From contig CASXXK010000008.1 of assembly GCA_949480205.1 (NCBI GenBank), forward strand, positions 1-38,754: a DNA stretch of 38,754 nt. Direction: 5' to 3'. This DNA is from an uncultured Candidatus Saccharibacteria bacterium (GTDB lineage: Bacteria > Patescibacteriota > Saccharimonadia > Saccharimonadales > Saccharimonadaceae). Below the pieces are notes generated by a model that saw nothing but the letters and a program-made list of their open reading frames with translations, was not told where the DNA came from and made no database searches. Both the position numbers and the translations under genes were made by a program. Below are positions 5,140 to 29,153 of the stretch, one piece after another; position 1 is the first letter of the stretch; each line of letters opens with the position of its first letter.

Positions 5140-6873
5140 TCAATAGTATTGTAGCATGAAAAACGCAAATTTGGAAGACTTTTTCGAAAAAGTGTGATAC
5201 AATAGCTTTGCACTGGGGATTCGCCAAGTGGTAAGGCACTGGGTTCTGGTCCCAGCATTCGGGGGTTCGAATCCCTCATCCCCAGCCATAAAAGACTTTT
5301 CAGATTTTGGAAGGTCTTTTTTGGTGGTTCTACCCCTATAAAATGGGCTAATTTGTGGGGTGCGAACTTTTTTGTCGGAAGTTACTAAAAATCCACCAGG
5401 AAATAGCAAAAGTTCGCACCTCTTAGTTTCTTCTAAAGTAAGATCAAAGAAATGATCTGCTAAATTATCGACCAAACTGAGAGCAAACTCCATAAAGTCC
5501 TTTTTATCGACATCTACTTTATTTTGAAGGTTATTCAGCCTAGCTACAACATCGACTAGGGCTTCTTTTGTGCGTTTAATGGCAGCTTCTACTTCAGAGC
5601 GAATTTCTGGATCGCTAATTTGGCATAAAGTTCGCACCTGCTCATTTTTCGTAGCTTCCAAAGACGATTTTCTTTGTGTAAGTTGATAGATTTCCGTTTG
5701 ACGCATACGCTCTTCATCTTTCCAGACCAGCTCAAGCTGCTTTAAGATACGTTTTCTACCATCATCTGATAGATCGAATTGGCTAATCTGTTCCTGAATA
5801 GCAGCGTGAGCCTCCTCTCGTGAAATACGTTTGTGACATCTACGGCAACCATAGACATCATATTGGTTGCCTTTGCCGTTACTGCTAACGTAGCCGCAGA
5901 ACTTACTGTGGTCGTGGATACCAATATTACCAGCAGCAATTTCAGCCTTGTGGCATTCCTCGCACAGCATAATGCAATTCAGTGGATAATGAGTATTGCC
6001 GCTTTTTCTGGGTGCAGCGTGACATTTTTTGCGATTACTAATAATAGCCACGATACGCTCGTGCTGTTCTTTCGTAATGAGCGGCTGATGAAGGGCATTA
6101 GGATTAAAGACCTTAACTTGCTTTTTGCCTTCAACGCAACCAGCATAATAAGGGTCATTCAATACCTTCTTCCACTTATCCATTTTATAAAGAGCGTGAC
6201 CACCACACACGAAATAGTCGCTTTGGTTTAGCTCTTTTAATCCATCAGATACTGAAAGAAAACCATCAGCGATACGAGCCATAATGTCGCTTAGAGTAGC
6301 GGCAAGATCATAGTCGTCATTTGGAACATGCATCCCAGGCGTAAATGTGCGTTTATAGCCAAACTTTGGCGGATATGGCGTTCTGCCAGCCTTGAGCGAC
6401 CCCTCTGCATTAGCAAGGCCCTTTCTAGTGCGTTCCTCATTGCTAACTTCAGCCTCAAAAAGTTTCGTAATACGTCGAAACTTGGTCATAGCATCACACC
6501 CGTTTAAACTCTCATCATCCGTATAGTAGATTTCCACGCCAAGCTTTTTGAACTCGATCTCAAAATAAACAGCTTCTTGAATCGATCGCATAAAACGGTC
6601 AGGCGATGATACCAAGAGATACTTGACCTTTTTGTGCTTTCTACAATAGTCCATCATTTCTTGGATATCCTTACGATGAACATTCTTGCCGCACTTGCTT
6701 GACGCACTACCGCTCCATTGACCGTCATCGGGGATATATACGCCAAGCCTATTGGCAGCCGCTAAGATAGATTTCGCCTGACTGTCTAGACTATGATTTT
6801 CTTTTTGTTCAGGGGTGGATACCCTGCAAGCAGTAATCGCCCAAGGTTGGGTGAGTGGGTTATATTTTGCCAT
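5140..6873 (-). CDS. Large serine recombinase (integrase), integrated-state form
   Basis: It catalyses site-specific integration and excision through a phosphoserine link. From the ATG at 6873 (GAGAGG ribosome-binding site) it has 577 residues. The resolvase domain (1-~150) carries ACRVSTPEQ with the presumed catalytic Ser, and SPDRFMRS. The recombinase domain follows (~180-300, GYKRTF...LNDPYYAG). A zinc ribbon has CIMLCEEC and YGCRRCHK, then comes a coiled coil (~400-475). The shared body ends at GDEG, residue 534. The last 43 residues are tRNA-Gln antisense plus host DNA, not a natural C-terminus. In the circular element the frame would instead run into the 77 codons at 10273-10043. A further in-frame start at 6960 is less likely. 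Confidence 0.92.
   Translation of the reverse strand: MAKYNPLTQPWAITACRVSTPEQKENHSLDSQAKSILAAANRLGVYIPDDGQWSGSASSKCGKNVHRKDIQEMMDYCRKHKKVKYLLVSSPDRFMRSIQEAVYFEIEFKKLGVEIYYTDDESLNGCDAMTKFRRITKLFEAEVSNEERTRKGLANAEGSLKAGRTPYPPKFGYKRTFTPGMHVPNDDYDLAATLSDIMARIADGFLSVSDGLKELNQSDYFVCGGHALYKMDKWKKVLNDPYYAGCVEGKKQVKVFNPNALHQPLITKEQHERIVAIISNRKKCHAAPRKSGNTHYPLNCIMLCEECHKAEIAAGNIGIHDHSKFCGYVSSNGKGNQYDVYGCRRCHKRISREEAHAAIQEQISQFDLSDDGRKRILKQLELVWKDEERMRQTEIYQLTQRKSSLEATKNEQVRTLCQISDPEIRSEVEAAIKRTKEALVDVVARLNNLQNKVDVDKKDFMEFALSLVDNLADHFFDLTLEETKRCELLLFPGGFLVTSDKKVRTPQISPFYRGRTTKKDLPKSEKSFMAGDEGFEPPNAGTRTQCLTTWRIPSAKLLYHTFSKKSSKFAFFMLQYY
5198..5203 (+). promoter_or_regulatory. tRNA-Gln -10 box
   Basis: TGATACAAT (extended -10, hexamer TACAAT) ends 10 nt before the mature tRNA 5' end. 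No convincing -35 box is seen. Confidence 0.5.
5214..5288 (+). tRNA. tRNA-Gln (anticodon CUG)
   Basis: The cloverleaf can be drawn by eye. Acceptor TGGGGAT (5214-5220) pairs with ATCCCCA (5278-5284). The anticodon stem CTGGG/CCCAG (5239-5243, 5251-5255) holds loop TTCTGGT with anticodon CTG at 5246-5248. The T stem is GGGGG/CCCTC with loop TTCGAAT (5266-5272). The discriminator is G5285 and CCA is encoded (5286-5288). The 3' 16 nt are duplicated at 10275-10290, marking this as the integration site of the element that follows. The tRNA sequence stays intact. Confidence 0.95.
5273..5288 (+). repeat. attL core (16-bp direct repeat)
   Basis: CCCTCATCCCCAGCCA is identical to 10275-10290. The bases on either side differ, so the match is exactly 16 bp. 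It forms the 3' T-stem strand, 3' acceptor strand, discriminator and CCA of the tRNA. Confidence 0.85.
5290..5322 (+). terminator. Element-borne terminator downstream of tRNA-Gln
   Basis: AAAAGAC (5290-5296) pairs with GTCTTTT (5314-5320), with extra pairs inside, followed by T. It starts 2 nt after the tRNA CCA and lies antisense within the recombinase gene. It would replace the tRNA terminator displaced to 10291. Confidence 0.6.
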
Positions 6874-6881
6874 ATTACCTC

Positions 6882-6953
6882 TCGTGAATACGATTGTGGA
6901 TTGTCGGGTAAGGCTCGCGAAAAACCTATTACAATCCACAGTCCTACTCACGA
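6882..6953. promoter_or_regulatory. Nested dyad upstream of the recombinase
   Basis: TGTGGATTGT (6895-6904) and ACAATCCACA (6931-6940) form a perfect 10-bp inverted repeat. TCGTGA (6882-6887) and TCACGA (6948-6953) form an outer 6-bp pair, each 7 nt away from the inner arm. It lies in the recombinase leader. It could be an operator for a dimeric repressor or an RNA stem masking the ribosome-binding site; the symmetry is seen, the function inferred. Confidence 0.55.
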
Positions 6954-6987
6954 AGACCATTAGATAATATTTCGCAAATTTTACCCT

Positions 6988-10349: not shown

Positions 10350-12329
10350 CTATGTCATCATTAGGTATGAAATTTTCCACGTATTTTCTATTTTGGAGAA
10401 TCCTATTGCTATACATTTATCTATATCCGTCCATTCATCCTTATGCTTTTGGCTTAGTTTGGCCATGTAATATGTAAGCATATTTTGATTGTTACATGCT
10501 ACGCAGGCTAGTCCAATTTTTTTGGTGTTTCTATATGTTTGGGTTTTTACGCTGAAATCAGAAATTGGCCTCCCAAGCTCTATTTGGCATTTCATTCTTT
10601 TAATATTATTAATGATATCCTTTGCTAGATCGCTGGGAAAATAGTGCATTGCAAATATGATATCAGTTTTTTCTGGGCTATTGCAGTCAATATGACCGAT
10701 TTCATTTAGTAGATCCATATATTCAGACGGTAAACGTCTTTCGATTGAGCTAGAATAACATATGTCATTGTGTAGAAAAAGTTTATTATAATAATACTCT
10801 TTTCTAAGCACTGACTCTAAATCGTCGCTCAATGCCAAAAAATCTGTATTGTTTGGGATTAATAAGTCATGCGTTAAGTAGAATGATAGGTAATTGATTT
10901 CATTATTGGTACCTAAATTTTCGTAATCTGAAGTACGTCTTTCTAAATAAAATAGAAAGTCGTACGGATTGCGTAGGTAATCCGTGGTCATTTCTAAATC
11001 GAAGATACTCATTTGTATCGGCGGGAAGTGTTCTTGTATTTTTAATTGGCATCTTTCAGCATGTTTATTTCCGGGATAATAGTCGCCGTTTACGCAAATG
11101 ATATATGCTCGATTGATTTTGCGGGGCTTGATAATGGTGTTATTTTGAAGTAGTTTGTAACTTTCGGTTTGTAGTATTTTTGCGGCTTTGACACCTTGTT
11201 CATATGGGTCTTGTATAGACTTTTGAAAATCCTGTTTAATAGTTTCTGGGTTACCGCTTTTTGATGCTGCAGTAAGTTTCTTGTTTTTATTTTGGATAAT
11301 TATTGCCGTTGAGTCGCAGTATGCCAGGACATCTATATCTGTAACTCGTCGTTTGCCTTGATATAGAATGACTGATTCGTATGTGTTATTTTTACCAAAG
11401 ATTTTTTCTATATATTCTCTTGTCGTGTCTTCTAGAGCTTTACCGATATTTTGGCTGAAAATTGGTCTATAAGAATCGTTTTTCATTGCTGCATAGTATG
11501 GGAACAAGAAAATAGCTTTTGCAAGAAGTATGGGCGATGATACGAAATATCCATTATTAGTTTTTATTAATGGTCTTTCGTATATAATGTTTTGTGATGA
11601 CGGATCGGAAAAATTGCAATATTGTTCTTGTTTGGCATAACCAAACATATCAAAGAATATGTTAACTTCGTCCGGCGTTATTGGAGCACCATTGTCTGAC
11701 GTAATGGCTGGTATTTCTGTTGGTTGCACTAAAAAGAGATTAATGGCTTTTGTGGGGTCAGTAAGATCTAGTTGTGTTGTAATGCCTTGACTAGCTATGT
11801 AACACGAATGGTTTATTTTTGTTAAGATGGCCATGAATATCTGTGCTATTGCATAAGTATCAAATGACTTGTTTTGTTTTAGCCATTCCATATCGTATCT
11901 ATATAGTTTTTCTATATGTTCGATGAATTGAAGGTCATAGGCACCAGATTCGGAGTAGAAAATTGATTCTATGTTTATTTCTGGGTTATCAATTAAATTT
12001 TTATTTCTTATGTCGGGTATATAAGTGTAGTGCAGCTTTTGGAGTAATTTCTTTATCTGTTTTTTAACCTTAATAATTTCTCTGGTATCGATTTTAGCTA
12101 TAGCGTTTGACGTGTAATTTTTATTTTGTATCATTAAACCGATGAGAAAGGCGATTTCATTAAAGGTTGTTTCATCTTGGGGATTAATTTGCGTAACATC
12201 ATTGTTTGATATATCCATGAACGATTCTTCTTGCATAATGCTAGACAGCACAATCAAAAAACCGTCCGATTGGGCGATTTTGGTCAAATCGTTAATGATC
12301 TTTGAACGTGTTTTATTGGACGTTTGCAT
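10350..12329 (-). CDS. Putative nuclease-like protein, 659 residues
   Basis: Mostly helical and unfamiliar. Near residues 328-350 it has a pattern DIDVLAYCDSTAIIIQNKNK, like the D...(E/Q)xK core of restriction-endonuclease-fold proteins, with Gln in place of the usual acidic residue. No signal peptide or membrane helix. It is clearly AT-richer than the ribosomal genes, suggesting horizontal acquisition. The ATG at 12329 is 7 nt after a -10 box (TATACT). It lies beside a NERD gene on the same strand, so a defence or DNA-processing role is possible. It lies outside the integrated element. Confidence 0.75.
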   Translation of the reverse strand: MQTSNKTRSKIINDLTKIAQSDGFLIVLSSIMQEESFMDISNNDVTQINPQDETTFNEIAFLIGLMIQNKNYTSNAIAKIDTREIIKVKKQIKKLLQKLHYTYIPDIRNKNLIDNPEINIESIFYSESGAYDLQFIEHIEKLYRYDMEWLKQNKSFDTYAIAQIFMAILTKINHSCYIASQGITTQLDLTDPTKAINLFLVQPTEIPAITSDNGAPITPDEVNIFFDMFGYAKQEQYCNFSDPSSQNIIYERPLIKTNNGYFVSSPILLAKAIFLFPYYAAMKNDSYRPIFSQNIGKALEDTTREYIEKIFGKNNTYESVILYQGKRRVTDIDVLAYCDSTAIIIQNKNKKLTAASKSGNPETIKQDFQKSIQDPYEQGVKAAKILQTESYKLLQNNTIIKPRKINRAYIICVNGDYYPGNKHAERCQLKIQEHFPPIQMSIFDLEMTTDYLRNPYDFLFYLERRTSDYENLGTNNEINYLSFYLTHDLLIPNNTDFLALSDDLESVLRKEYYYNKLFLHNDICYSSSIERRLPSEYMDLLNEIGHIDCNSPEKTDIIFAMHYFPSDLAKDIINNIKRMKCQIELGRPISDFSVKTQTYRNTKKIGLACVACNNQNMLTYYMAKLSQKHKDEWTDIDKCIAIGFSKIENTWKISYLMMT

Positions 12330-12336
12330 AATATAT

Positions 12337-12342
12337 AGTATA
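12337..12342 (-). promoter_or_regulatory. -10 box for a probable leaderless gene
   Basis: TATACT on the minus strand, 7 nt before the ATG at 12329; no Shine-Dalgarno sequence. Confidence 0.5.
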
Positions 12343-12365
12343 GACTATATATTAGTTTTTGGTAG

Positions 12366-13025
12366 TTAGGCTTTATAATCTTCGATTTCAGAGATGTGTT
12401 CGTCACGAATGATAGTGGTAGGATTAACGCGGCTGGCGTCGAGTTTGTTGCGAATATCAACGACCTGTTGAGGCGAGAATGGTGGACGGCGGCTGGTAAT
12501 ATTATCTAATGTTGCGCTCAGTTCGGCCTGGGTGCAAACGTAGCAATCAGGTGGTAAATTATCGATGACTTTGAGGGTAACATCGCCGCCAAAAACGATT
12601 ACAGAATACAGTGGTACGATAGTGCCGAAAATACTGGCAATAGCGGAAACATGGGAAGCATTTTGGCGGACGGGACTATAAAATTGATGTTTGTTTTTGC
12701 CGTAAGCGGAAACCTGAGTCCAATGGATGCGGTCGCCATGACCAAAAATCCAGCCAAGATGACCTTTAGACTCAAAGACGAAGATTCCCCGTTCGTCAAC
12801 GGCGAGACAATCAATTTGTAGAAGTTCGGCGTCGGAGACGACGTGATTTTTGATGCGTTGATCATTGGGCTTGGAATCGGGTTTGGGAAAATAACAATCG
12901 ACGAGGATGTTTGCCGGGGTGAAAAGTTTTTGCAGACTATAAACTAGACGAGTTTCGGCAGGAGTGAGTTTGACGGGATAGGGTGAAGTGATTTTGGTGC
13001 CGGTAATTTTATATGGTTGTTCCAT
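12366..13025 (-). CDS. NERD-domain protein
   Basis: 219 residues. The NERD (nuclease-related) domain spans about residues 20-130: LVYSLQKLF, then ELLQIDCLAVDERGIFVFESKGHLGWIFG with the conserved D...ExK residues, then the W of IHWTQ. NERD domains belong to the restriction-endonuclease-like fold and are often paired with helicases, kinases or DNA-binding domains. Here the domain is nearly alone, with only a short helical C-terminus. It precedes the 659-residue nuclease-like gene with a 36-nt gap, possibly one unit. Confidence 0.85.
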   Translation of the reverse strand: MEQPYKITGTKITSPYPVKLTPAETRLVYSLQKLFTPANILVDCYFPKPDSKPNDQRIKNHVVSDAELLQIDCLAVDERGIFVFESKGHLGWIFGHGDRIHWTQVSAYGKNKHQFYSPVRQNASHVSAIASIFGTIVPLYSVIVFGGDVTLKVIDNLPPDCYVCTQAELSATLDNITSRRPPFSPQQVVDIRNKLDASRVNPTTIIRDEHISEIEDYKA

Positions 13026-24318: not shown

Positions 24319-25166
24319 TGGTTTTTGCCTCCACGTAAGATTTTTCTATATGTCCAATCACGTAGCGCATTTGGCATTAGGCAAACGACGATATGCGGGG
24401 CAACGCTTTTTATGAAATCGATCCTTGAAAAAAAACCAGTATCCATTTGCTCTTTTTTGAAACGTAAAATTGATTTTAGATATGTAATTCCACCTCTGCG
24501 GCGATAGAAGTTCTCGTCTATACGCATATAAGTAAGTGGTTCTTGTATATTGTAACATTTTGTTCCATTTTGTATCATACGGGTATATAGGTCATAGTCT
24601 TCGCACAAATAATATTCCCTATAGTTCCCGGCTTCTAATACGGCCGTTTTTTTATATAATAGCGATGGGTGGCGAAAAGGACAACGTCTTTTTGCAAAAG
24701 CGGTTATGGCTTCATGATTTTCTGGCAATATAACTTTAGACACTATATGGTCCGGGCTGTCTTTAAATTCGTAAACGTTGGAGCCAACAAGACTTATGTT
24801 AGGATGTTTTGCAAAAATACTTAATTGCTGCTCTATGCGAGTAGGCACAGAATAATCGTCGGAATCCATTCTGGCTATATATTCGTTGTGGCAGTTTTCG
24901 ATGCCAATCTTTAGGGCTGGGCCAAGACCAATATTCTTTTCTAATTCTATAATATGGAAGAGTGATGGATTATCTTGTACGAAGTGATCTACAACATTTT
25001 CTAACTCAGGGGTGATCTCCCCGTCTTTTACTAGCACGAATTCGGAGGGTTTAACTGTTTGGCTGAGCATGCTATCAATGCTAGTTCTTAGCCAATTTGG
25101 ATTCTCTTTGAAATATACGCTCATCAGGACAGTGTATTTGGTGTGCGTATTGATTTTTTGAACCAT
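24315..25166 (-). CDS. Glycosyltransferase family 2
   Basis: 283 residues: VLMSVYFKENP, VKDGE (46-50) and MDSDD (100-104), then CEDYDLYTRM (~193-202). This subclass often transfers galactose- or N-acetylglucosamine-type sugars, but donor choice cannot be read here. Its ATG overlaps the stop of the phosphoglycosyltransferase gene by one base, and it probably adds the second sugar (inference from order). Confidence 0.9.
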   Translation of the reverse strand: MVQKINTHTKYTVLMSVYFKENPNWLRTSIDSMLSQTVKPSEFVLVKDGEITPELENVVDHFVQDNPSLFHIIELEKNIGLGPALKIGIENCHNEYIARMDSDDYSVPTRIEQQLSIFAKHPNISLVGSNVYEFKDSPDHIVSKVILPENHEAITAFAKRRCPFRHPSLLYKKTAVLEAGNYREYYLCEDYDLYTRMIQNGTKCYNIQEPLTYMRIDENFYRRRGGITYLKSILRFKKEQMDTGFFSRIDFIKSVAPHIVVCLMPNALRDWTYRKILRGGKNQ

Positions 25167-25795
25167 TATTGTGCTCCTTTTTGGCGTAAAACGGTGCCAA
25201 CGGTACGGAATAAGATTTTGACGTCCAATACGATTCCGCGATTCTCGATATAGAAATATTCAAGTTTGAGGCGTTCGTCATAGTCGCTGTTTTTGTCGCT
25301 ACGAATGCGCATAGCCCAATAGCCAGTAACGCCGGGTTTGACGGATTGGTATTTTTCGATGTCTTTGGCCTTGCCGCCATGTTCTTTGAGCTCGCCGGGT
25401 ACGAGCGGACGTGGGCCGACCATGGACATCTGTCCCAGCAGGACATTGACGAATTGTGGAAATTCGTCAATTGAACCATTACGAATGATTTTGCCAACTT
25501 TGGTGATGCGGGGGTCATTGTCGAGTTTTTGGTATTCTTCCCATTGGTCGCGATACTTCTTTTGTTCGAGGAGTTTTTCTAGGGATTCGTCGGCATTTGG
25601 TATCATGGAACGGTACTTGATAATTTTGAAAGTTTTGCCATTTTTGCCGATGCGCTCTTGGGTATAAAAAATGGGGTGAAAATCACCAGTGCAAATGTAA
25701 ACTAGTTTGATAATCACGGTGAGTGGTATTAAAATAATCAGTCCCACAAGGCCAATCAAGATATCGCTCAATCGCTTCACGCATGCGTAAATCAT
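25166..25795 (-). CDS. Initiating sugar-phosphate transferase (PglC/WbaP catalytic type)
   Basis: 209 residues. It moves a sugar-1-phosphate to undecaprenyl phosphate, the first step of repeat-unit assembly. An N-terminal hydrophobic re-entrant helix (~10-33) is followed by FKIIKYRSM, the catalytic Asp-Glu in GSIDEFPQ, MSMVGPRP and SVKPGVTGYWAM. It is the short, monotopic form without the extra N-terminal domain of WbaP. First gene of the glycan operon. The nearest AAGGA is 14 nt from the ATG, a poor spacing, and an 11-G tract lies just upstream. Confidence 0.93.
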   Translation of the reverse strand: MIYACVKRLSDILIGLVGLIILIPLTVIIKLVYICTGDFHPIFYTQERIGKNGKTFKIIKYRSMIPNADESLEKLLEQKKYRDQWEEYQKLDNDPRITKVGKIIRNGSIDEFPQFVNVLLGQMSMVGPRPLVPGELKEHGGKAKDIEKYQSVKPGVTGYWAMRIRSDKNSDYDERLKLEYFYIENRGIVLDVKILFRTVGTVLRQKGAQ

Positions 25796-25815: not shown

Positions 25816-25826
25816 CCCCCCCCCCC
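25816..25826 (-). repeat. Poly-G tract (11) in the glycan operon leader
   Basis: Eleven C on the plus strand, so G11 in the mRNA, between the -10 box (25849-25854) and the start at 25795. Long G tracts are prone to slippage. No start codon lies upstream in frame, so any effect would be on transcription or ribosome binding rather than on reading frame. The exact count may be uncertain in an assembly. Confidence 0.8.
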
Positions 25827-25854: not shown

Positions 25855-25960
25855 GCACGAAAATGCCGCAAGCGACATGGCTTGGCGCGCTAATTTGGTT
25901 TGATTATATCATAGATTGCTGGAAATGGGAAGAGGGGATATAGGCACGGTGCAGATAGTT

Positions 25961-25989
25961 TTGTTGTAGTGCTAATTATATGCTATCAT
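25961..25989 (+). promoter_or_regulatory. Reverse transcriptase promoter
   Basis: TTGTTG (25961-25966), a 17-nt spacer and extended -10 TGCTATCAT (hexamer 25984-25989), 11 nt before the ATG. The leader would be only ~5 nt and has no Shine-Dalgarno sequence. Confidence 0.45.
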
Positions 25990-26000
25990 ATGTGTAAAAT

Positions 26001-27506
26001 ATGGAAAGTGTTTTAAATTTATCTGCAGAGGACGCGCGTAGATTCTTTTTGAATCAGAAGAGCTATTGCAATATTGGGTTGCCTAGTTATTTTGATTTCC
26101 AATCGTTATTGGATGCGCTTGCTGAAGATTATATGTCTGCCTTATCTTGTAAGGATGTTACGAAATATGTAAATTGCTTGCGAGGTTTTAGCAAAAGAAG
26201 AACGGATGAAGTAAATTGTCAAATATATGCTAATAAAGATGGTGAATTTGCATGGAGACGGCTACAGCTAGTGAACCCAATAGCTTATATCTACTTAGTA
26301 TTCCTGATGACTGACAGAAAGAACTGGAAGGTTATTGTTGACAGATTCCACGATTTTCAGAAGGATAATAAGATTAAATGTTGTAGCGTGCCTATAAGCA
26401 TGATGGAAAGCAACAGCAAGTCTGAAAATGTGAGCAATTGGTGGCATGAGAATGAGCAGGAATCAATTAAGCTTGCTATGAGATATACGTATATGTTGAT
26501 TACGGACATTTCAGATTGTTACAGTTCGATCTATACACACTCTGTTCCATGGGCTTTATACGGACAAGCGTACGCGAAAAAACATAGAGGCGATCATGCG
26601 CTTTTAGGCAATCAGATTGACGAGGTGATTCAGAATATATCGTACGCACAGACAAATGGAATTCCTCAGGGTAGCGTTCTGATGGATTTTATAGCTGAAA
26701 TGGTTTTAGGGTATGCAGATGCATGCTTGTCTGAAGAGTTGAGGCGTGAAAAAATTAACGATTATTACATTTTGAGATATCGTGATGATTATAAGATATT
26801 TGCCAACGAAAAAGAGAATGTCGTTAAAATTACGAAATTGCTAGATAGGGTTTTAGCGGAGTTGAGCCTAAAGCTAAACGCAAGCAAGACGGTGATTAGT
26901 GACAATATTATATGCGATTCCGTAAAACCTGATAAACTTTCTTGGATGGAAAAAGCAGAGTCTAATACTATTCAAAAGAGGCTACTGAGTATACATAAGT
27001 TTTCGAACGATTTTCCAAATTCCGGCAGTATAGAAAAGAGTCTATGTAGGGTTGCTGATAGTATAGAAGAAAATGTGGTGATATTAGCAAATGAAGACCT
27101 GGATGCGATTGTTAGTATTTTGGTGGATATAGCATTTAGAAATCCTAGGACTTATCCCATAACGGTCGTTATATTGGGGAAGATTTTGCCAATTCTGAGT
27201 AGGCGACGAATCAAAGATCTTTTTGATCAGATTGATAAGAAGTTTAAACGACTCCCTAACACAGAGTTTATGTCTATTTGGCTACAACGTCTAACTATAA
27301 AAGTTGGTCTTCGCAGAAAATATGATAGCAGGGTTTGCATGTATGTACAGCAAATTAAAAGTGGGCATAAAAACGCGAAAATGGTTTGGGAATGCAACGG
27401 TTTTAGCAAGATTTTTAGAGATAATCCGTTTATTAATCTTGAGCAGATAAAAACGATGCCACAGATTCCGGAAGTTAAGGAGGCGAAACTGTTTTGGCAT
27501 TATTGA
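26001..27506 (+). CDS. Reverse transcriptase, unknown-group/abortive-infection type
   Basis: 501 residues. Palm motifs: TDISDCYSSIYTHS (168-181) with the first catalytic Asp, NGIPQGSVLMD (219-229), ILRYRDDYKIF (257-267) with the catalytic Asp pair in YRDD, and LKLNASKT (290-297). The last ~200 residues are helical with no known motif, as in Abi and defence-associated (DRT/UG) reverse transcriptases. There is no group II intron maturase, HNH or retron-like partner nearby. Stand-alone members of this class defend against phage; the exact subgroup cannot be fixed by eye. A very stable stem-loop follows the gene. Confidence 0.85.
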   Translation: MESVLNLSAEDARRFFLNQKSYCNIGLPSYFDFQSLLDALAEDYMSALSCKDVTKYVNCLRGFSKRRTDEVNCQIYANKDGEFAWRRLQLVNPIAYIYLVFLMTDRKNWKVIVDRFHDFQKDNKIKCCSVPISMMESNSKSENVSNWWHENEQESIKLAMRYTYMLITDISDCYSSIYTHSVPWALYGQAYAKKHRGDHALLGNQIDEVIQNISYAQTNGIPQGSVLMDFIAEMVLGYADACLSEELRREKINDYYILRYRDDYKIFANEKENVVKITKLLDRVLAELSLKLNASKTVISDNIICDSVKPDKLSWMEKAESNTIQKRLLSIHKFSNDFPNSGSIEKSLCRVADSIEENVVILANEDLDAIVSILVDIAFRNPRTYPITVVILGKILPILSRRRIKDLFDQIDKKFKRLPNTEFMSIWLQRLTIKVGLRRKYDSRVCMYVQQIKSGHKNAKMVWECNGFSKIFRDNPFINLEQIKTMPQIPEVKEAKLFWHY

Positions 27507-27572
27507 CGGTTAATGGTTGCGCTAACCTATGAGTTAGTATTTACGCCTTTTCTTTATTCCGTGGATCATGAA

Positions 27573-27614
27573 ACGCCCTGCTGTCCGTTTTTTGTATGGT
27601 GGGCAGCAGGGCGT
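27573..27614. terminator. GC-rich stem-loop between convergent genes
   Basis: A 14-bp stem (27573-27586 with 27601-27614, one G-U on plus) around a T-rich 14-nt loop. It lies 67 nt after the reverse transcriptase stop and just before the opposing gene's stop (27619). T runs outside the stem are weak on both strands, so it is either a poor bidirectional terminator or a structured RNA element. Confidence 0.5.
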
Positions 27615-27618
27615 GGGA

Positions 27619-27912
27619 TTACATTTCTGGCAGATTGGAGATATTGTTATATGGGTTGCCATCAGCTACTGACTTAAGATACTCGATACCATCCTTTGAT
27701 GTGGCCACGTAGCATTTAGCTCCAGCAACGCCATTTACTCCGCTTGGGCAGGTGTATGCCGCTGATCCGGATTTTACCTTGTTGACTACATACTGTCGCC
27801 CGGCATAGTATTTGCTGTCATTTTCGTAGTAATGATAAGTGTCAATAGCTTCGTCTGGATCGCTGTGATTTCCGTCATCTTTAGTAATTCCATAAATATA
27901 AATTGTGCTCAT
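27619..27912 (-). CDS. DUF3892-like small protein
   Basis: 97 residues. MSTIYIYGITKDDGNHSDPDEAI and the final YVATSKDGIEYLKSVADG...NLPEM resemble DUF3892 proteins, small cytoplasmic proteins of unknown function found in accessory regions. This is from memory of the family pattern. An AGAGGAA ribosome-binding site is present. It lies downstream of a decayed frame and a hypothetical gene, probably one transcript from the promoter at 28545-28573. Confidence 0.65.
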   Translation of the reverse strand: MSTIYIYGITKDDGNHSDPDEAIDTYHYYENDSKYYAGRQYVVNKVKSGSAAYTCPSGVNGVAGAKCYVATSKDGIEYLKSVADGNPYNNISNLPEM

Positions 27913-28121: not shown

Positions 28122-28517
28122 TTAATTGTTATACTCCAATTCTATCAGGTATAAGCTGATATTGTCAAGACCCTTTTTTATCTCCTTCTTTTCATAGTCA
28201 TAGCGTCCGGTTCTAATTTTCCCCATAAGATCATTTAGTATAAAAAAGTTTTTGGCAGTGATGTATCCGCCGTACATACCATTGTTTGGTGCCGTGATTT
28301 TGAACCCTTTTTCATTAACGTCCATTTTGAATTCTATGGCTATTTGCTTAGTTTGCTTATTATAATACAGCAATGCCGATCTAGCATTTTTTATCTCGTT
28401 TAGCGTATAAAAGGCTGACGGGAAGTTCAGCATGTAATTTTTCGTTATGGTTATTTTGTTTACTATGCGACTAACTGCTTGGTTATTGAATAACTCAAAG
28501 CCCTCTAATTCTTCCAT
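28122..28517 (-). CDS. Hypothetical protein, 131 residues
   Basis: Not recognised. It has alternating strands and helices, is rich in Asn, Lys and Tyr, with no membrane helix or signal peptide, and contains no catalytic motif I can name. The strong promoter and AGGAG ribosome-binding site argue that it is expressed. First gene of a short minus-strand unit with the decayed frame and the DUF3892-like gene. Confidence 0.6.
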   Translation of the reverse strand: MEELEGFELFNNQAVSRIVNKITITKNYMLNFPSAFYTLNEIKNARSALLYYNKQTKQIAIEFKMDVNEKGFKITAPNNGMYGGYITAKNFFILNDLMGKIRTGRYDYEKKEIKKGLDNISLYLIELEYNN

Positions 28518-28613: not shown

Positions 28614-29153
28614 TTAGTTTTTGTTCGCTATTTGTGCTTTATGATTTCCCGCCCACCACGCCAAATAATAACTAGAAAACAATAATGTTCCTACGCATGC
28701 CCCGGCGGTGTCGATCAATACGTCAGAGAATTGTCCAGTACGACCGTCGACAAATGTTTGATGGTACTCGTCAGTCATAGCAAAGAGAAAACATAGGAGG
28801 ATAGTGGCAGCGCAAGTGAGGAGATATTTTCTACCGCCAAAAATCACGCGACCAAGAATAAGTGAGATAATCGCAAGTACAAAATATACGGTGGCGTGCG
28901 CAACTTTGCGCAGCGGTGCATTAATGAGGCTGGCGGCTTTGGCGAGCTTTTCGTCGTCTGGGTGAGAGTCGGTAAGTCCAGCTTCGTTGGTGGCGTCAAG
29001 AACTTTGGAGATAAGTTGTTCGGTGACCCCCTTACTCTTGTTATTAGAAGTTTCTGAGTTCATTGCGGAGAACTTAAAAATAGTGGCGCACCAGGCGATT
29101 GCGATGACGGATATTATGGCAAGAATGATGAGTTTTGTGCGCTTTCTTTGCAT
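28614..29153 (-). CDS. VanZ-like membrane protein
   Basis: 179 residues with four membrane helices. The motif set LRKVAHATVYFVL (~81-93), DEYHQTFVDGRTGQFSDVLIDTAG (~127-150, two blocks) is the VanZ-like family pattern. VanZ itself confers low-level teicoplanin resistance; the wider family is found in envelope and phosphotransbutyrylase-like contexts with unknown activity. It follows the orphan membrane gene in a recR-headed unit. Confidence 0.85.
   Translation of the reverse strand: MQRKRTKLIILAIISVIAIAWCATIFKFSAMNSETSNNKSKGVTEQLISKVLDATNEAGLTDSHPDDEKLAKAASLINAPLRKVAHATVYFVLAIISLILGRVIFGGRKYLLTCAATILLCFLFAMTDEYHQTFVDGRTGQFSDVLIDTAGACVGTLLFSSYYLAWWAGNHKAQIANKN

Follow-up and report, generated by a model that had tools for sequence, protein, structure and literature searches.

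The gene at positions 26001-27506 (+) of the window (the whole 38,754-nucleotide stretch of contig CASXXK010000008.1, from an uncultured Candidatus Saccharibacteria bacterium, that was analysed here) is, as judged from its sequence and predicted fold, an intact Abi-P2. Very probably it encodes a stand-alone anti-phage polymerase that would form a trimer and prime untemplated DNA synthesis from its own Tyr30, with no need for an RNA or a partner gene. The initial annotation had called the product a reverse transcriptase (RT) of an unknown group; the stand-alone defence type of the UG/Abi kind stood up to analysis, whereas the class is a known one, of which this gene is a further member.

Family assignment, catalytic residues and predicted fold

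The reading frame runs from an ATG start to a TGA stop, is open throughout and encodes 501 amino acids. Met1 was invariant in a 44-row alignment, which supports the annotated start. The product matched RVT_1 in Pfam (E = 1.1e-12) and, over residues 1-499 of 501, the PADLOC class model for AbiP2 (PDLC03744, 574 bits, E = 6.6e-173); the runner-up PADLOC classes were RT_UG14 (180 bits), Drt6 (168 bits) and Drt4 (148 bits), and AbiK scored 118-120 bits. Eight NCBIfam hits were obtained, none of them to an Abi-P2 model and none above its cut-off. The nearest solved protein by sequence was Abi-P2 itself (7r08; phmmer E = 9e-83, query residues 1-451), and identity to the Abi-P2 of E. coli P2-like prophages was about 35%. 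Contamination of the genome bin was ruled out because core genes are found on the same contig (ribosomal proteins, rpoA and secY, recognised by eye from translations, and RecR, identified by Pfam) and because the flanks of the gene are syntenic in a sister genome.

The polymerase motifs, which had been described as intact and as including YRDD, were indeed complete. The motif A catalytic residue Asp169 (codon at 26505-26507, +) and the YRDD motif (residues 260-263; 26778-26789, +) with the catalytic residues Asp262 and Asp263 were invariant in the alignments, giving a full triad of catalytic aspartates. All 41 columns that were invariant across 70 relatives were retained in the window RT, which deviated at three columns with at least 95% conservation (P87R, H187Y and R265K) and had one gap. 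These conservation counts leave out the Listeria and Erysipelothrix phage rows, and the alignment and trees leave out seven fragments shorter than 400 amino acids. The predicted priming tyrosine is Tyr30 (codon at 26088-26090, +), which aligned to Tyr61 of Abi-P2; this column held a tyrosine in 72 of 73 rows and a gap in the remaining row. In the sequence alignment to 7r08, Tyr30 and Phe15 of the query are opposite chain residues 61 and 46, respectively. Synthesis by Abi-P2 is reported to be lost in the Y61F mutant and retained in the Y46F mutant (PMC9508834). The residue numbering of that paper appears to follow the 7r08 chain index, which fits since chain positions 46 and 61 are both tyrosines, whereas the EC58 protein has the aligned tyrosine at residue 60.

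An AF2 model computed from the query and 43 relatives had a mean pLDDT of 89.5 and a pTM of 0.90. The six best Foldseek matches to this model were the six chains of 7r08 (E = 4.3e-30; TM 0.83-0.85 by query and 0.86-0.88 by target), and a representative fit (TM 0.84 by query and 0.87 by target, 522 columns) covered both the RT-like and the helical lobe. The C-terminal helical domain, initially put at about 200 residues, comprises about 190 in the model (approximately residues 310-495; 26928-27485, +) and is part of this whole-chain fit. The next best fold family was DRT6 (TM 0.58), and DRT6, UG15, DRT4, AbiK and AbiA together ranged from 0.48 to 0.61 by query. The folds of G2L4, DGR, group II, DRT9 and DRT2 enzymes gave TM values of only about 0.30-0.38, and those of DGR and group II enzymes ranked 22nd and below.

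The window protein thus shares with the Abi-P2 of the E. coli P2-like prophages (P2-EC30 and P2-EC58; 7r08) an alignment of nearly full length, the YRDD motif, the position of the priming tyrosine, the helical C-terminus and the whole-chain fold. Like the prophage gene as described in PMC9508834, it is a single gene in a variable region; unlike it, it occupies a chromosomal slot next to a polysaccharide cluster and not a prophage, and its N-terminus is about 30 residues shorter than that of 7r08, so that the alignment begins at chain residue 32. AbiK and AbiA, of class 1 of the UG/Abi enzymes, have the same general fold and presumably the same chemistry (AbiK, TM about 0.5 to the window model). 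AbiA has a HEPN domain (PMC11077055), whereas the window RT had no HEPN match in Pfam.

Distribution of Abi-P2 and its variable slot

A search with the single protein at E = 1e-3 matched two of 60 relatives, namely the window's own genome and a weak 18-bit hit. With a 33-row profile at 1e-30, 10 of the 392 genomes of the class were matched, the window's own included; the best PADLOC class was AbiP2 in eight of these and UG14 in two (G070 and G154), and Abi-P2 is therefore rare in the class (8/392). A sample of the phylum gave matches in 5 of 379 genomes, one being a further AbiP2 (G723), one a partial match (G500) and three having already been found. Other sources yielded 72 loci in a genome collection, one in viral contigs, nine phage records and 209 plasmid records, just 22 of which span 80% or more of the query.

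A careful tree was calculated from 41 rows (33 of the 73-row alignment and 8 others). In this tree the query paired with the sequence of G316 (100/99) within a clade that holds Bacteroidales sequences (100/99), G109 and G178 grouped separately with Pediococcus and a Clostridia MAG (97/91), and G166, G091, G146 and G176 made up a third group (99/94). In a larger quick tree, from which onward the Erysipelothrix row was left out, G166 fell outside the group with G091. Forcing the eight sequences of the class into one clade was 53.5 log units worse (p-AU = 0.008), which indicates that the class acquired Abi-P2 at least twice; taken at face value, the tree implies three gains.

The closest relative by both tree and identity, and the best found, was the Abi-P2 of G316 (48% identity), a genome of the same genus. 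This copy carries one in-frame TAG, which indicates that Abi-P2 genes do decay, and it differs from the window gene in lying in another neighbourhood with a Fic neighbour. Fic-family proteins adjoin Abi-P2 both there (L094:10281-11414) and in G166 (L093:10402-11547). Long imperfect palindromes follow the RT gene in Bacteroidota relatives (L006, L011, L014 and L017) and in a Chlorobiota MAG (L012); at L017:6530-10957 they recur between small ORFs in the manner of attC sites, and in these genomes Abi-P2 may be mobile as an integron cassette. The same arrangement was considered for the window and rejected, no attC-like R' or R'' motif being present in 27400-27700.

The window gene is next to core genes and borders on a polysaccharide cluster with genes for a flippase, EpsG, a pyruvyl transferase and a sugar transferase. 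The left border of its slot is the bacterial sugar transferase that ends the surface polysaccharide cluster (25166-25795, -; Pfam Bac_transf 5.8e-58), and the right border is a VanZ-like protein (28614-29153, -; Pfam VanZ 2.3e-21); these are 94% and 79% identical, respectively, to their counterparts in G330, a genome of the same genus with a RecR 99% identical to that of the window. Homology between the window and G330 ends at 25936 and restarts at 28653, and the cargo segment 25937-28652 is missing from G330, which carries other genes at this place. Besides Abi-P2 this cargo includes a DUF3892 protein not known to be linked to Abi-P2 (27619-27912, -; Pfam 1.2e-07) and a 131-residue protein with no family above cut-off in Pfam, PADLOC or NCBIfam (28122-28517, -); relatives of these two proteins were not found beside other RT loci. 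The cargo of the G330 slot includes a Fic protein (L133:15455-15988; Pfam 7.9e-11), which matched the PADLOC candidate PDC-S04 (5.7e-82), and in G013 the relatives of the VanZ and sugar transferase genes are about 250 bases apart. The slot was kept in 2 of the 11 neighbourhoods compared (G330 and G013); the other nine, some of them truncated at contig ends, showed neither of the border genes next to recR. These comparisons indicate that the slot between the sugar transferase and VanZ is a small site of swapped defence genes. From the presence of the gene in a reduced genome, strong phage pressure had initially been deduced; this does not follow, because so few genomes of the class carry Abi-P2 and the cargo of the slot is exchanged between sister genomes.

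Three further features of the window were observed. A run of 11 C residues at 25816-25826, just upstream of the start of the sugar transferase and by eye also 11 long in G330 (L133), is a candidate tract for phase variation of the polysaccharide cluster. A large serine recombinase ORF (5140-6960) overlaps with its C-terminal end a tRNA-Gln gene on the opposite strand (5214-5288), which suggests an element integrated at the tRNA. Two NERD-domain proteins are encoded at 10350-13025, partly in a stretch of low G+C content, and had no PADLOC match.

The patchy occurrence in the class, the absence of Abi-P2 from the slot of the closest sister and the TAG codon in the nearest relative would all be expected if the window gene were a decaying passenger of a variable slot and functionless in this cell. 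We consider this quite improbable, given a fully open frame with every invariant column retained and a divergence from the G316 copy that is large for a gene that is unused and yet open. A functional Abi-P2 is the reading that we prefer.

Stand-alone status and proposed mechanism

The assembly to which the window belongs (855,131 bases in 28 contigs, 87.6% complete) contained one RVT_1 match, the Abi-P2 gene, and the only Rfam match over the window was one tRNA. These searches gave no sign of a retron, an intron or another RNA partner, in agreement with the initial annotation. The search for a conserved flanking RNA that it had proposed yielded none, either in Rfam or in all-against-all comparisons and folding of flanks among the relatives. 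Among the hits listed (40 of 49 upstream and 17/17 downstream), no match joined the query flanks to those of relatives. Upstream hits between relatives were mainly at loci with hsdS upstream, where they appear to reflect coding sequence.

In the mechanism proposed, the protein would assemble into a trimer, as expected by homology, and DNA synthesis would begin on the Tyr30 hydroxyl of the polymerase itself. Catalysis would proceed via Asp169, Asp262 and Asp263, and an untemplated single strand would grow through the channel between the RT-like and helical lobes, with no RNA template, primer or partner gene required. In an infected cell phage growth would be halted, and the cell itself would probably be lost or turn dormant. 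The present analysis supplies the assignment to the family, the intact residues, the fold of the whole chain, the lack of any other RT or Rfam RNA, the variable slot and the repeated acquisition, and the trimer, priming, untemplated synthesis and exclusion of phage T5 are carried over from papers on relatives. Abi-P2 (7r08) is described as a trimer that makes untemplated DNA, and orf570 of P2-EC30 as excluding phage T5 (PMC9508834). The class 1 UG/Abi enzymes are described as protein-primed and as synthesising untemplated DNA, with a role in defence that is not determined (PMC12632851; PMC13275509).

An RNA-templated defence RT of class 2, like DRT2, DRT9 and DRT10, would instead use an adjacent small non-coding RNA, for which the best candidate is a strong hairpin at 27573-27614, where the Abi-P2 and DUF3892 genes converge. 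This region was more stable than 200/200 shuffles (z = -3.5 on the + strand and -4.1 on the - strand) and its arm sequence occurs once in the genome. The hairpin, however, is flanked by the stop codons of two converging genes, where terminators are usually found, and in the simplest reading it is probably a terminator for both genes; no U run follows it on the + strand. Upstream, the sequence specific to the Abi-P2 allele is limited to 64 bases (25937-26000), which together with 20 coding bases folded no better than shuffles (z = -0.67). A possible but weak promoter was read there by eye (TTGTTG-17-TATCAT with TG before the -10; 25961-25989, +); it was missed by the promoter scan, its first hexamer matches at 3 of 6 positions, and it would leave a very short leader, a few bases long. 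Downstream folding in the relatives was ordinary as a set (median z = -0.48, 83 flanks). With no Rfam match for such an RNA and a much weaker fold match to DRT2 and DRT9 (TM 0.32-0.36), templated synthesis is very unlikely. That the enzyme is a group II intron, retron or DGR RT that has lost its partner, with which it has the RVT_1 core in common, has next to no probability when group II (50.5 bits) and retron (27 bits) models score far under their cut-offs, against 574 bits for AbiP2, and the group II and DGR folds rank so low. We therefore keep to the self-primed, stand-alone Abi-P2.

Linkage to type I restriction operons in relatives

Neighbouring genes were compared for 87 RT loci with flanking sequence, of which 85 belong to relatives of the query and two (L101 and L102) have UG14 as best class; the window was excluded. 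This set includes two loci of identical sequence (L001 and L013), and many of the contigs end early. An hsdS gene upstream and an hsdR gene downstream, on the same strand and within four genes, were found at 17/87 loci, and either one at 25/87; without L101 and L102 the figures were 16/85 and 24/85, L101 being among the 17 and having the same hsdS-RT-hsdR layout with its UG14-best RT. At 7 of the 17 loci, hsdS shares 4 bases with the RT gene. These loci were spread over many phyla (L037, L048, L051 and L069 among them) and three of them (L095, L096 and L100) are Abi-P2 genes of the window's own phylum. Pfam confirmed HsdR at 12 loci, HsdS at two and HsdM at two; the remaining hsd calls rest on HMMs grown here, and type IIG enzymes may be among the hits of the hsdM model. 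When the restriction-modification label, carried by 24 of the 81 rows, was mapped on the tree, it changed 16 times, indicating that the linkage has often been gained or lost.

The RTs at L095, L096 and L100 belong by PADLOC to the same family as the window RT and differ in being sited between hsdS and hsdR. Neither of these genes was found beside the window Abi-P2, which has the DUF3892 protein, the 131-residue protein, VanZ and the sugar transferase as neighbours, and no HSDR_N protein was found in the assembly, at its 87.6% completeness. Some precedents are described. PrrC is kept silent by a type Ic system (PMC3506569; PMC3710099), RTs with an AbiA-CTD are tabulated in operons with restriction-modification genes (PMC3710099), and one AbiK has been placed within a restriction-modification system and some AbiP2 in CRISPR loci (PMC8934634). 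No statement of Abi-P2 in type I restriction-modification operons was found in those portions of the literature that were searched, which did not extend to the main UG/Abi surveys, and no priority is claimed.

From gene order, and with no such link at the window, we raise as a tentative and rather doubtful possibility that Abi-P2 serves in much of its range as a second line of defence coupled to type I restriction. Like PrrC with PrrI, it would be silenced by the restriction complex and freed for DNA synthesis once a phage disables restriction, and stand-alone copies such as that of the window would be escapees with another trigger. If this were true, the loss of restriction would answer the open question of what switches on the Abi polymerases. 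The linkage in the relatives is the part of these results most worth following.

Literature searches for RT-based defence in Saccharibacteria and for phage defence or abortive infection in Patescibacteria found no paper, and the available part of an article on phages of these bacteria (PMC10746230) contains neither "reverse transcriptase" nor "abortive infection". Epibiotic bacteria with small genomes are reported to encode CRISPR-Cas seldom (PMC6509639). The gene itself is ordinary; its patchy gain by bacteria with tiny genomes and its frequent siting in restriction operons of other bacteria are worth testing. A defence consisting of one gene of 1.5 kb suits a tiny genome, and the class has acquired this one on more than one occasion, here at a site that in a sister genome holds a different candidate defence gene.
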